A DNA stretch of 64,000 nucleotides from Acetobacter persici JCM 25330 (GTDB taxonomy: Bacteria > Pseudomonadota > Alphaproteobacteria > Acetobacterales > Acetobacteraceae), in NCBI RefSeq assembly GCF_000613905.1, contig NZ_BAJW01000010.1, positions 1 through 64,000 on the forward strand. The letters run 5' to 3'. A program made the position numbers and the translations under genes. The notes under the pieces were generated by a model, which saw nothing but the letters and a program-made list of their open reading frames with translations, had not been told where the DNA came from and did no database searches. Below, piece after piece: positions 35,235-42,194 of the stretch (position 1 is the first letter of the stretch; the number at the start of each line of letters is the position of its first letter).

Positions 35235-36454
35235 TCAGCGTGTGGTGGCCTCGGGTGCTTTCGGGGCAACCAGCCGGAAGAGCGGGCCAGTCAGCACCGT
35301 AGAAATCACCGCCAGCACCATCAGGGATGCAAAGGCAAATTCGGAAATCATCCCCTGCTGATGCAGAATGGTGGCGGCTACAATTTCCATCAGGCCCTTG
35401 CACTGTAACAGCGCCCCGATACTAAGCCGGAGCCTGCTGTTAAGGCCTGCGGCGGGCGGAAACAGAAAGACCGCGCCAATCTTGGTGATAACCGAGAGAA
35501 CAACGAGCATCAGTGAGGCAATGACGGATGGCCACGTCAGGGCGTCTCCATCAATATGCAGCCCGCTATGGCCGAAGAACATGGGCGCAAGCCAGATTAG
35601 TGAGAAGGTACCAACCTGTTCCACTGGCAGGCGGCGCACCCAGCTTGGCGGCATGATAGCCCCGGCAAAATACGCCCCGATCAGCTCATGCAGCCCAAGC
35701 TGCATACTGGCCCATGATCCGCCGCCAGATAAATGGGGACAGCCAGCCAGATAACCCAGAGCGGAGGGTGTTTGAGGTTACGGGTGGCCCAGCTTCCCGC
35801 AAGCGCCAGCCCGGCCAGCAGGGCAATGGCGACAAACTCCAGCCCGGTCCAGCCCTTCAGGCTTGCAGAGCCTTTCGCGACAAATTGCAGCGCGGCGAGG
35901 CCAATCCACAGGGCGGCATCATCCACGACGGCCAGTTTGAGGGCCAGATGGCCGATGGGCCGGTGGCTCGGTGACAGCTCACGCACCACGCCAATCAGCA
36001 CTGGCAGGGCGCTGACGGCCATGCACAGCCCGACCGATAGGGCGCCAATAAGCGGGGTTGTATGCGGCGGTGTCCAGCCACGCAGGGGCAGGAAGAAATA
36101 ATAGACCAGTACGGAGCCGATCAGGAACGGACCTGCAAGTGCTACCAGCGCGCCGCCCAGCAAACGGCCCAGCGAGGGCGTGGGCAGAGGGTCATCCTGC
36201 TCTTTTCCGGGGGTCTGCCACATTTCCAGCCCGGCCGTGAAGGCAAGGATCAGCACAGCCACCCAGCCTATGGAGGTGCCATACAGAGAGGGGATGCCGA
36301 GGTTTTGCACAGGGGCATGCGTGACGGCTAAAAGAATGCCGACAAGAATCGGGATTACGGCAATAGGAATAGTTTTATTAATCAGGCGCCAGAACCCCCA
36401 TGGCACCAGAACAAATATGATCACATCAGCAAAAAGTGCTAAAATTTTCGGCAT
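35235..36454 (-). CDS. CPA2-family cation/proton antiporter (one frame break)
   Basis: 406 aa after repair, with about 11-12 hydrophobic segments and no TrkA-N domain. HLALKLAVVDDAALWIGL near residue 175 carries the paired aspartates of Na+/H+-type CPA antiporters, and LGLHELIGAYFAGAIMP matches the family's later helix motif. The frame breaks near 35709; one base after GGGCC restores DHGPSMQLGLHEL. It probably exchanges Na+ or K+ for H+, relevant to an acid-producing cell. Its leader contains ATGAAAATGAAGA, also seen in the blh leader. Confidence 0.86.
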
Positions 36455-37416: not shown

Positions 37417-37746
37417 TGGTGTCCGCGACGGGATTCGAACCCATGGCCCCAGGATTCATCCCACTTCGGTTTTCACCGCCCCCCGGCTTTGCTCCCTTTA
37501 AAAGGGGCCGGGTGTTCGTGGTCTGGACTGTCCCTTTGCCGTAAGCCGTTTCCGGCTCGTAGGCACCGCCCGTCCAGTCTCTACACCTTCCGGCTCTGTT
37601 GCCAGAGCACAGCTTGGCTCGGGATCGGCACGGCAAAAGCTTGCCAGAGCGTTCCCCGAATTTGAGCGGATACACCATGAAGTTTCCCGTCATGGCGCCC
37701 AATTACCTTAGGAATCCTGTGCTCTATCCTGCTGAGCTACGCGGAC
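37417..37746 (-). tRNA. tRNA-Arg (anticodon CCT) interrupted by a group I intron
   Basis: Exon 1 (37710-37746) gives acceptor GTCCGCG, D-arm GCTC...GAGC and CAGGATTCCT. Exon 2 (37417-37456) gives AATCCTG, T-arm ATGGG-TTCGAAT-CCCGT, acceptor CGCGGAC, discriminator A and encoded CCA. Joined, the anticodon arm is CAGGA-TTCCTAA-TCCTG with anticodon CCT, and the tRNA is 77 nt. The intron sits directly after the third anticodon base. Confidence 0.95.
37457..37709 (-). ncRNA. Self-splicing group I intron (IC3-like) in tRNA-Arg(CCU)
   Basis: 253 nt, no ORF. Conserved core elements are visible in order on the minus strand: P-like AAATTCGGGGAACGC, Q-like GATCCCGAGCCAAGC, R-like GGAAGGTGTAGAGACTGGAC, and S-like GGGACAGTCCAGACC. 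These closely resemble the cores of cyanobacterial tRNA-Leu and proteobacterial tRNA introns. The exon before it ends in U and the intron ends in G, as required. Group I introns at tRNA-Arg(CCU) are known from Agrobacterium. I could not fix the internal guide sequence pairing by eye. Confidence 0.92.
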
Positions 37747-38840: not shown

Positions 38841-39536
38841 TTACAGGCCACCGGTCTGGCTTGGGGCCCCACGGCCTGTGGCCATATCCGGGATGGCATC
38901 ATCCCCTTCCTGCTCCATTGGCGCATCCTTTTCAGAATTCGGGATGGCATTGGGCATGGGGTAGAAGGCCTTGCCCTGCGTGCGTTTTTGCGCCGGAGTG
39001 GCCTGTGTGCGGAACCACGTTGCCACCTGCTGCGTGACCTGATCCGCCAGCGTTTTGGCAACGCGGCCTGTCGTGGTCTCGTTATTCAGGGTCTGGGCAA
39101 AATACTGTTCGTAGGTGGAGGTATAGCCATCCAGCGCTGAGGCATCCCCCTGCGCCAGCATCCTTGGATATTGTTCAACAGTATACAGCGTCCAGTGGGC
39201 GTGCCCGTTCATCCGCACGCGGCCGGAGGTGTTGTCCGAGTGGATGTCCAGAGATTCATAGCTGATGGAAGGCTGGACAACCAGTTTATAGCCTTCCGGA
39301 TCTTCCGGCCCGTCTCCCGCCATGTTCTGTTGCAGCGCCAGACGGACCTGCTGGCCCATACGTTCAGGAATATTGGCGACGTAGACGCGCTTGAGTTCCG
39401 CGTTGATCTGCGGCGCATCCTCGCGCTCACCATAGAGTGGCTGAAAGCCGCACCCGCCCAGCGCAAGAGGAGCCCCCAGCAGCAGAACTGCCAGAGAACT
39501 ACTGAACAGAGTTTGCGTGAAGCGGGATCTGGACAT
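38841..39536 (-). CDS. lptE: LPS-assembly lipoprotein LptE
   Basis: 231 aa. A signal peptide ends in the lipobox LALGGC (Cys near residue 29), then GFQPLYGERED, the LptE opening. It plugs and assists LptD in placing LPS in the outer membrane. The Gln/Pro/Glu-rich C-terminal ~50 residues are likely disordered. The ATG overlaps the leuS stop by one base (TGATG), indicating coupling. Confidence 0.93.
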   Translation of the reverse strand: MSRSRFTQTLFSSSLAVLLLGAPLALGGCGFQPLYGEREDAPQINAELKRVYVANIPERMGQQVRLALQQNMAGDGPEDPEGYKLVVQPSISYESLDIHSDNTSGRVRMNGHAHWTLYTVEQYPRMLAQGDASALDGYTSTYEQYFAQTLNNETTTGRVAKTLADQVTQQVATWFRTQATPAQKRTQGKAFYPMPNAIPNSEKDAPMEQEGDDAIPDMATGRGAPSQTGGL

Positions 39537-42194
39537 CAGCCTGCCGTTACAAAATTGACGATACGATTAGGCACATGGATGCGTTTGACAATCCGCTTGC
39601 CTTCCAGCAGCCGCGCCACGTTGGGTTCGGCTTCCGCACGGGCAATAACGGTAGCGCTGTCTTCATCCGGTGCAGCGTCAATCTTGCCACGCAGTTTGCC
39701 CATAATCTGCACAGCCAGCGTCACCTGCGTGGCGGCCAGCAGCTCAGGTTCGGCGTCCGGCCAGGGAAGGTCCACGACCATGGTCTTGCCCGGTTCCAGC
39801 AGTGCGAACATTTCTTCCGCCAGATGCGGCATCATGGGGGCGCAGAGCTGGCACAGGGAGCGGGCGGCCTCCCGGCGGGCAAACGCCATACCGGCCAGAT
39901 CCGGCGTTTTCTCCGCATCCGCCAGAGCCGATGTCAGCTCATGGATACGGCTACCGCCACGTTGATGGTGAAGGTTTCCAGAGCTTCCGTCACGGCGGCA
40001 ATGGTGCGGTGAGTGGCGCGGCGCAGCGCATCCGCCTGCGGAGCGATTTCTGCCGGACAGGTGTCCTGAGCGGGCACGGTTTCCGCCACAGTGCGCACCA
40101 GACGGAACAGGCGCTGGGCAAAACGGGCCGCACCGGACACACCGGCCTCCGTCCATTCCATATCGCGTTCCGGAGGGCTGTCAGACAGCACAAACCAGCG
40201 GGCCGTATCCGAGCCAAACCGTTCGATAATAGCTTCAGGAGAGACCGTGTTGCGCTTGGACTTGGACATTTTTTCCACGCGGCCAACCGTCACGGCTTCT
40301 CCGGTGTCACGCTTGACAGCGCCTTCCGGCCGCAAGTCCACCTCTTCCGGATACAGCCAGTTTCCGGCGGCGTCCTTGTAGCTTTCATGGCTGACCATGC
40401 CTTGTGTGAACAGCCCCGCAAACGGTTCGCTCAGGTCCAGATGGCCGGTCTTGCGCATGGCGCGGGTAAAGAAGCGCGCATAGAGCAGGTGCAGAATGGC
40501 GTGCTCAATCCCGCCAATATACTGGTCTACTGCCAGCCAGCCATCGGCAGCGCTGCGCACCGTCGGTGTTTCGGCATGCGGGGCGGTGAAGCGCGCAAAA
40601 TACCAGGAGCTGTCAACAAACGTGTCAAACGTGTCGGTCTCACGCACCGCGGGCTTGCCACATTTGGGGCAGTCCACATGTTTCCATGTCGGGTGGTGGT
40701 CCAGCGGGTTGCCGGGTTTATCGAACGTGACATCTTCCGGCAGCTTGACCGGTAGCTGGGCATCCGGCACCGCGACAGGGCCGCAATGTTCGCAATGGAT
40801 CACCGGGATGGGGCAGCCCCAGTAGCGCTGGCGGGACACACCCCAGTCGCGCAGACGCCAGTTGGTGACGCCTTTGCCAACGCCCAGTTCTTCCAGCCGG
40901 GAAATGGCTTCTTTCCGGGCGTCTTCCGTGGTCAGAGCATCCAGAAAGCCGGAGTTGATCATCGTGCCATCGCCCGTAAAGGCATTTTTGGTAATGGCGA
41001 AGTCGGCCTGATCCTTGCCCTGCGGCAGAACAACCGGCGTGACAGGCAGATTATATTTGTGCGCGAAGTCCAGATCGCGCTGGTCACCAGACGGGCAGCC
41101 GAACAGCGCGCCGGTGCCGTAATCCATCAGCACAAAATTGGCGATCCAGATCGGAAAGCTTTTGTCCATGAAAGGATGGTTGACGCGCAGGCCGGTGTCA
41201 AAACCACGCTTTTCAGCCGTTTCGACAGCCTCGACCGAGGTGCCAAGGCGGCGACAGTCCGCAATGAATTCGGCGGCCTCCGGGTTGCTGCGGGCCACAA
41301 AAGCCGCCAGCGGATGGTCAGGGGCAATGGCCAGAAAGGACATGCCAAACAGCGTATCCGGGCGCGTGGTGAAGACCTCAACCGCGTTCAGATTGCTGTC
41401 CAGTCCCTGATTGTTCAGGTCATGGGGCGGCTGGTGCAGGGAGAAGGTGATGTGCGCCCCTTCCGAGCGGCCAATCCAGCGTTCCTGCATGACACGCACA
41501 CGGTCCGGCCAGCGGTCCAGTGTTTTCAGGCCATCCAGAAGGTCTTCTGCAAAATCGGTGATTTTCAGAAACCACTGTGAGAGTTTCTTTTTCTCGATCA
41601 GCGCGCCGGAGCGCCAGCCGCGGCCATCCACAACCTGCTCATTAGCCAGCACGGTCTCGTCAATCGGGTCCCAGTTCACCCAGCTTTCCCGGCGTTCCAC
41701 CAGACCAGCTTCAAGGAAGTCCAGAAACAGCTTCTGCTGTTTGCCGTAATAGTCCGGCAGGCAGGTCGCAATTTCACGGTCCCAGTTGAGGGAGAAGCCG
41801 AGGCGCTGAAGGGTTGCGCGCATGGCGGCAATGTTTTTCAGCGTCCAGTCCTGCGGGTGCACGCCGCGTTCCCGCGCTGCGTTTTCCGCTGGCAGGCCGA
41901 AGGCGTCCCACCCCATCGGGTGCAGCACGGCGTAGCCACGGGCGCGCTTATAGCGGGCGACAACATCCCCCAGCGCGTAGTTGCGCACATGGCCCATATG
42001 GAGCTGGCCGGAGGGGTAGGGGAACATTTCCAGCACGTAGTATTTGGGTTTATCGGCCGGGGGGACATCCGGCACGGTAAACACTCCGGCCTCGTTCCAC
42101 GCTTTCTGCCACCGGGGCTCAACGGTCTGAAAATCGAAGGACGCCCCTGTGGAGGCTGCGCCGGGGCGGTGGACGTGTTGGCAGGCTGTGTCAT
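39536..42194 (-). CDS. leuS: Leucyl-tRNA synthetase (two frame breaks)
   Basis: 886 aa after repair. It carries the HIGH-type motif [16 protein letters not shown], a CP1 editing domain with [21 protein letters not shown], a zinc-like [15 protein letters not shown] motif, and [13 protein letters not shown]. Translation starts at 42194 ([15 protein letters not shown]). Breaks: the C4 run 42144-42147 (one G missing on the coding strand, restoring [16 protein letters not shown]) and near 39950 (one C missing, restoring [18 protein letters not shown]). An essential gene cannot tolerate these, so they are almost certainly sequence errors. Confidence 0.95.

Follow-up and report, generated by a model that had tools for sequence, protein, structure and literature searches.

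How does a gene for tRNA-Arg(CCU) that is broken open directly behind its anticodon yield a tRNA, and how did the interrupting sequence come to be there? This question is raised by a locus of Acetobacter persici JCM 25330, which lies in a window of 64,000 nt (the whole stretch of DNA analysed here, taken from contig NZ_BAJW01000010.1). We are almost certain that the interrupting sequence is a self-splicing group I intron, probably of subgroup IC3, in the anticodon loop of the sole tRNA-Arg(CCU) gene detected in this genome.

With introns allowed, ARAGORN reports a complete tRNA-Arg(cct) on the minus strand, which has 77 bases without a 253-nt intron (Table 1). The insertion point lies directly after U36, the third anticodon base (junction ttcct-intron-aatcc), and excision of the intron restores the tRNA. 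The initial annotation had given the same length, strand, insertion point and anticodon. It had also warned that tRNA finders often fail on such genes, and this is what we observed: default ARAGORN misses the split tRNA, returning only tRNA-Trp and tRNA-Gly for the window, and the intron is absent from the Rfam output for the window at the gathering score. RF00028 at the Rfam cut-off detects zero introns across the whole genome. A permissive RF00028 search of 501 bases matches 37556-37722 of the minus strand with 25 bits (E 2.5e-4), the gathering score being 50. That score is a curated detection threshold and no biological criterion; the Rfam and default ARAGORN blanks were not counted as absence. 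For annotation, the consequence is that tRNA-Arg(CCU) would look missing from this genome under default tool settings.

Table 1. Parts of the split tRNA-Arg(CCU) gene and of its intron (positions in the window)
Feature	Position	Strand	Source
tRNA-Arg(CCU) gene including intron, 330 nt (77 nt without)	37417..37746	-	ARAGORN, introns allowed
5' exon, 37 nt; last bases are the anticodon CCU (37710-37712)	37710..37746	-	ARAGORN
Group I intron, 253 nt; omega-G is the last base, 37457	37457..37709	-	ARAGORN and R2 match
3' exon, 40 nt, CCA end included	37417..37456	-	ARAGORN
Internal guide GGG, pairs with anticodon CCU (P1, U.G at 5' splice site)	37698..37700	-	Sequence reading
P3 5' strand, partner 37566-37571	37664..37669	-	25-sequence alignment
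P4 5' strand, partner 37618-37623	37655..37660	-	25-sequence alignment
P4 3' strand (Q element)	37618..37623	-	25-sequence alignment
P7 5' strand (R element, guanosine-binding helix)	37575..37579	-	25-sequence alignment
P3 3' strand	37566..37571	-	25-sequence alignment
P8 5' strand, partner 37537-37540	37562..37565	-	25-sequence alignment
P7 3' strand (S element)	37526..37530	-	25-sequence alignment

No obvious endonuclease gene is found in the intron; the longest stop-to-stop reading frame that overlaps it has 117 codons and extends beyond the 3' end of the tRNA. The tRNA was also considered as an integration site, and this reading was dropped: neither its last 26 nor its last 18 bases have a second exact copy in the window.

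The group I assignment was examined with a covariance model, R2, which was trained on 20 introns with a computed structure, none of them from Acetobacteraceae (10 from Bartonella and 10 from other Alphaproteobacteria). The boundaries of these introns came from matches of another model, R1, whose own training included the window intron, and E-values of the models are rough. In a search of both strands of the window, R2 yields a single match, 37454-37711 on the minus strand, with 193 bits (E 1.1e-54). The intron falls short of the RF00028 gathering score (25 bits vs 50) and is detected at 193 bits by the model of the known family; it is no chance finding. The initial annotation had placed the element in group I and named the failure of a covariance model to find the core as a reason to abandon that class; R2 does find the core. 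Folding alone gives a minimum free energy of -137.4 kcal/mol (z -3.06), and none of 100 shuffled sequences reached a value as low.

Support for the fold is provided by covariation. We wrote by hand a structure with 91 pairs, covering both the group I fold and the cloverleaf, and evaluated it on 25 homologues, including the window. In this alignment, 93.6% of cells are paired, compared with a mean of 86.7 after shuffling (0 of 500 as high). When the partners were slid by 1-3 columns, 34-44% of cells were paired, in a control that favours the structure because the window sequence itself had served to draw it up. Two-sided changes occur in 41 of the 91 pairs vs a shuffled mean of 26.3 (again 0 of 500 as high), and they are present in P2, P3, P5, P6a, P7, P8, P9.1 and P9.2. 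The helices P3-P8 of the group I core, with P3 and P7 crossing, are all found. All cells are paired in P3 (6 pairs, of which 2 have two-sided changes, one of them seen in 2 and the other in 8 of the 25 sequences), in P8 (4 pairs, 2 with two-sided changes) and in P7 (5 pairs, 4 of them invariant and 1 changed on both sides in a single sequence of the 25); the change in P5 is likewise carried by one sequence. In P4, 90% of cells are paired, five of the six pairs being invariant and the sixth lost in 15 of 25 sequences, and P6a, a helix that either varies or aligns badly, is paired in 68.9% of cells. No two-sided change occurs among the 25 sequences in P4, in P6 or at the base of P9, which are therefore little informative.

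The splice sites are uniform as well. The P1 pairs C-G, C-G and U.G are found in 25 of 25 sequences, so that each has the U.G pair at its 5' splice site; 11 of them lack pairing at the outermost position of P1. Introns of 218-265 nt are flanked by TTCCT and AATCC and end in G at all 25 aligned loci, whose boundaries had been located by searching for that TTCCT/AATCC motif.

By the established chemistry of group I introns, the reaction at this locus would proceed as follows. The intron would fold around P3-P8, and the anticodon CCU would dock on the guide GGG. A guanosine bound by P7 would attack after U36; the freed U36 would in turn attack after the last G of the intron, which would join CCU to AAUCC and restore the tRNA. 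We infer that the window intron can very probably cut itself out, because the tested member from Bartonella bacilliformis splices. A folded intron might instead splice only with a host protein, e.g., a synthetase or an RNA chaperone, and helpers in vivo are indeed often presumed for group I introns, as noted in a paper on that Bartonella member (PMC7717549). The same paper describes splicing of this intron in vitro from a transcript (PMC7717549), and the core is conserved in the window intron according to both the alignment and R2; we therefore consider strict dependence on a protein unlikely, if worth keeping in mind.

If the insertion were instead a decayed one that no longer splices, the tRNA gene would be dead and tRNA-Arg(UCU) would have taken over its job. 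Among 41 Rfam tRNA matches in the genome, ARAGORN finds the Arg anticodons TCT, CCG and ACG and does not find CCT. Thus, tRNA-Arg(UCU) is present, and it could read AGG by wobble. In addition, a congener with a genome of 1.5 Mb (G015) has tRNA-Thr(CGT), Gly(GCC), His(GTG) and Arg(TCT) as its top four matches to the spliced tRNA, with no Arg(CCU) among them, suggesting that the gene may be dispensable; this reduced genome has possibly lost it. However, cloverleaf and intron core are retained, with two-sided changes, in 24 genomes of the genus (window included), and a dead gene is hard to believe in. A second intact tRNA-Arg(CCU), which the initial annotation had named as a sign that this copy is decayed, was not found: a permissive search of the 3.70-Mb assembly (91.45% complete) returned no second copy of the stretch. 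The overall interpretation offered at the outset is supported, and the intron, very probably self-splicing, adds a new member to the group I family known from tRNA-Arg(CCU) genes of Alphaproteobacteria, inserted, as in this family, directly after U36.

We then asked how the intron is distributed. The searched set comprised 41 genomes, i.e., its own and 40 relatives, of which 24 belong to the same genus and 16 to other families of the class. Near-full-length copies are present in its own genome, in one genome from the other families (G031, 66% identity) and in 23 of the 24 sampled congeners, where the intron site is thus occupied; two more of these 16, G033 and G035, carry introns in tRNAs other than this one. 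Model R1, built from 18 introns with the window included, matches 140 of 299 Acetobacteraceae genomes (54 of 102 genera) and 49 of 385 genomes of the class, five of the latter being from the window's family; some of the matches lie in other tRNAs. Such introns are therefore common in the family. The spliced tRNA as a query matches 295 of the 299 family genomes at E <= 0.001, some of these matches being partial or to other tRNAs, and of 20 uninterrupted matches fetched from the family, all 20 proved to be tRNA-Arg(CCT). A pattern scan of named genomes gave at least 119 stretches, with at least 80 loci listed, and R1 matches all 58 that were tested out of the 80 listed. Genera among the matches listed include Bartonella, Phyllobacterium, Mesorhizobium, Rhodobacter, Azospirillum, Magnetospirillum, Gluconobacter, Komagataeibacter, Gluconacetobacter, Commensalibacter and Bombella, as well as others.

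Several observations bear on how the intron was passed on. Of the 23 congeners, 14 resemble the window in having leuS at 2.2-2.4 kb from the split tRNA, and leuS is distant or on another contig in the remaining 9. When congeners are compared with the window, the identities of split tRNA and LeuS correlate (Spearman 0.58, p 0.003, n=23), those of the split tRNA being fairly flat (72-80%) with the exception of the four nearest relatives. A tree was computed from 92 introns (89 different, with three pairs of identical rows); its bootstrap had yet to converge. One side of a branch holds 72 of the 73 Arg(CCU) rows, i.e., the window and 71 others including Bartonella, which points to shared descent of these introns; support for the branch, 92/99, is slightly under the program's star level. 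The single Arg(CCU) intron outside this group is L126. The window intron groups with Acetobacter and Commensalibacter rows (90/95). Introns of Thr and Lys tRNAs form long branches that meet in the tree. A script filed some rows of the window's family (e.g., L104 and L112) under other Alphaproteobacteria, a label that enters none of the counts reported here.

A recent horizontal arrival in the species, as opposed to old residence in the genus, would account for the patchiness of the R1 matches in both class and family, and for parts of the tree: Arg(CCU) introns from Azospirillum, from Rhodobacterales and from Acetobacteraceae meet at open forks, and the Acetobacter rows do not form one group. 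It would not account for the occupancy in nearly all congeners, for a similarity that drops along with that of LeuS, or for the nearest rows to the window intron in the tree, which are from Acetobacter and then from Commensalibacter, and we judge it quite improbable. Taken together, leuS linkage, identity correlation and tree fit an intron that has long resided in the genus, while older events of transfer or loss would have occurred within the class. The intron seems to have been inherited mostly with the host chromosome.

The neighbouring genes are as follows. One side of the split tRNA has a 186-codon frame without a Pfam match. The other side has, on the minus strand, a frame with a borderline match to DNA_pol3_delta (20.7 bits for a cut-off of 21), another of 231 codons that has no match, and leuS. 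The latter (39536-42084, minus strand) is apparently in two frames, with 716 codons compared with a single frame of about 870-960 in most congeners; its second piece, 39536-40156, was recognised only by eye. A sodium/hydrogen exchanger gene (35235-36454, minus strand) also appears to be split, with a Pfam match on one of its two frames. Both splits are likely errors of sequencing or of the draft assembly.

Related introns interrupt other tRNAs in Alphaproteobacteria. We tallied the host tRNAs of 118 loci, the window included, a non-random set made up of best-scoring matches, the remaining matches from the class and low-scoring matches from the family. The script resolved 85 loci and left 2 ambiguous and 31 unresolved. 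The 85 hosts are Arg(CCU) (39), Leu(UAA) (28), Thr(GGU) (5), Leu(CAA) (4), Lys(CUU) (4), Lys(UUU) (3) and Thr(CGU) (2), in a tally that requires a U before the intron and a G at its end and thus cannot test that rule. At several loci the ARAGORN labels tRNA-His(atg) and tRNA-SeC(tca) were rejected, as the exons, once their shifted boundaries are put right, are those of Arg(CCU) and Lys(UUU). Three congeners (G010, G002 and G006) have, in another tRNA, a second intron that is a distant relative, namely in tRNA-Lys(UUU) at L031 and L032 and in tRNA-Thr(UGU) at L033. In tRNA-Leu(CAA) at four loci (L268, L276, L283 and L284), related introns with lengths of 274-431 nt sit between U33 and the anticodon.

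Such introns were also seen on plasmids. Plasmid pCTX-M3 (L349:1427-1725) and two further records (L350 and L351) carry a tRNA-Leu(UAA) that contains a complete group I intron, near aac(3)-IId and, in L349 and L350, with an AAA ATPase gene in between. ARAGORN labels this tRNA Stop(tta), which we rejected because the exons read Leu(UAA). With its intron, it is covered at >=80% in 1257 of 72,556 plasmid records, and 1280 records match it to any extent, 1273 of them with an identity of >=99%. The three plasmid introns tested score 33-36.8 bits with RF00028, below the gathering score of 50, and default Rfam annotation therefore misses them as it misses the window intron.

As for phages, a 2014 review states that all phage introns observed to date lie in protein-coding genes (PMC3984707). 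A first scan of viral contigs with a weak pattern produced chance hits, as none of 80 loci matched R1 at E 0.01. A scan for the conserved core gave at least 80 loci; R1 matches all 80 of those listed, as the pattern would predict. ARAGORN finds an intron-split tRNA in 60 of the 80 listed viral contigs, with 29 labelled Leu(taa) and 6 Arg(tct), some labels being shifted or doubtful. The listed contigs are L473-L551 and L463, and the split tRNA genes on them are apparently phage-borne, with group I introns of this core type; the Gordonia phage Daredevil (L352:1420-1731) has one in tRNA-Lys(ttt). In the three viral contigs whose neighbouring genes were tested, we found tail and baseplate families (L480), rIIA/rIIB families (L481) and a weaker tape-measure match (L520). 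Some of the viral contigs may be host DNA, and L463 carries an Arg(CCU) intron. It is conceivable, though we would not expect it, that the window intron belongs, as a settled branch, to a larger and still mobile population of group I introns in tRNAs, which move among chromosomes, phages and plasmids as part of whole tRNA genes, the tRNAs of phages and plasmids being the carriers. Introns in phage and plasmid tRNAs would make an old question, the spread of small tRNA introns that lack an endonuclease gene, open to testing.

How does the window intron compare with known systems? Introns of this kind have already been noticed in acetic-acid bacteria: a table footnote on Asaia bogorensis, likewise an acetic-acid bacterium, records that one tRNA(Arg) is interrupted by a group I intron homologue, and gives neither anticodon nor structure (PMC4596401). 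This was the only paper found in a literature search on group I introns, tRNA and Acetobacter. A close counterpart is BbgpI of Bartonella bacilliformis, which interrupts the same host tRNA at its CCU anticodon and is described as self-splicing, with splicing reported in vivo and in vitro (PMC7717549). The same source, citing Paquin et al. 1999, refers to a conserved alphaproteobacterial tRNA-Arg(CCU) family that was first found in Agrobacterium tumefaciens (PMC7717549). Ten introns from other Bartonella species, which make up half of the R2 training set, have their exon pattern and tree group in common with the window intron and are 64.8-70.3% identical to it over aligned columns, in an alignment that does not include BbgpI itself. 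Unlike these members, the intron described here has Acetobacter as its host. The IC3 intron of Azoarcus tRNA-Ile(CAU) seems to be alike in its 3-bp P1 with the anticodon, its GAAA loops on P2 and P9, and a similar P4-P6 and P7, although its tRNA and anticodon are different. Crystal structures of that Azoarcus intron are mentioned in a review (PMC3984707). Overall, the window intron is of a long-known kind and ordinary by itself; what is new is this member of the family.
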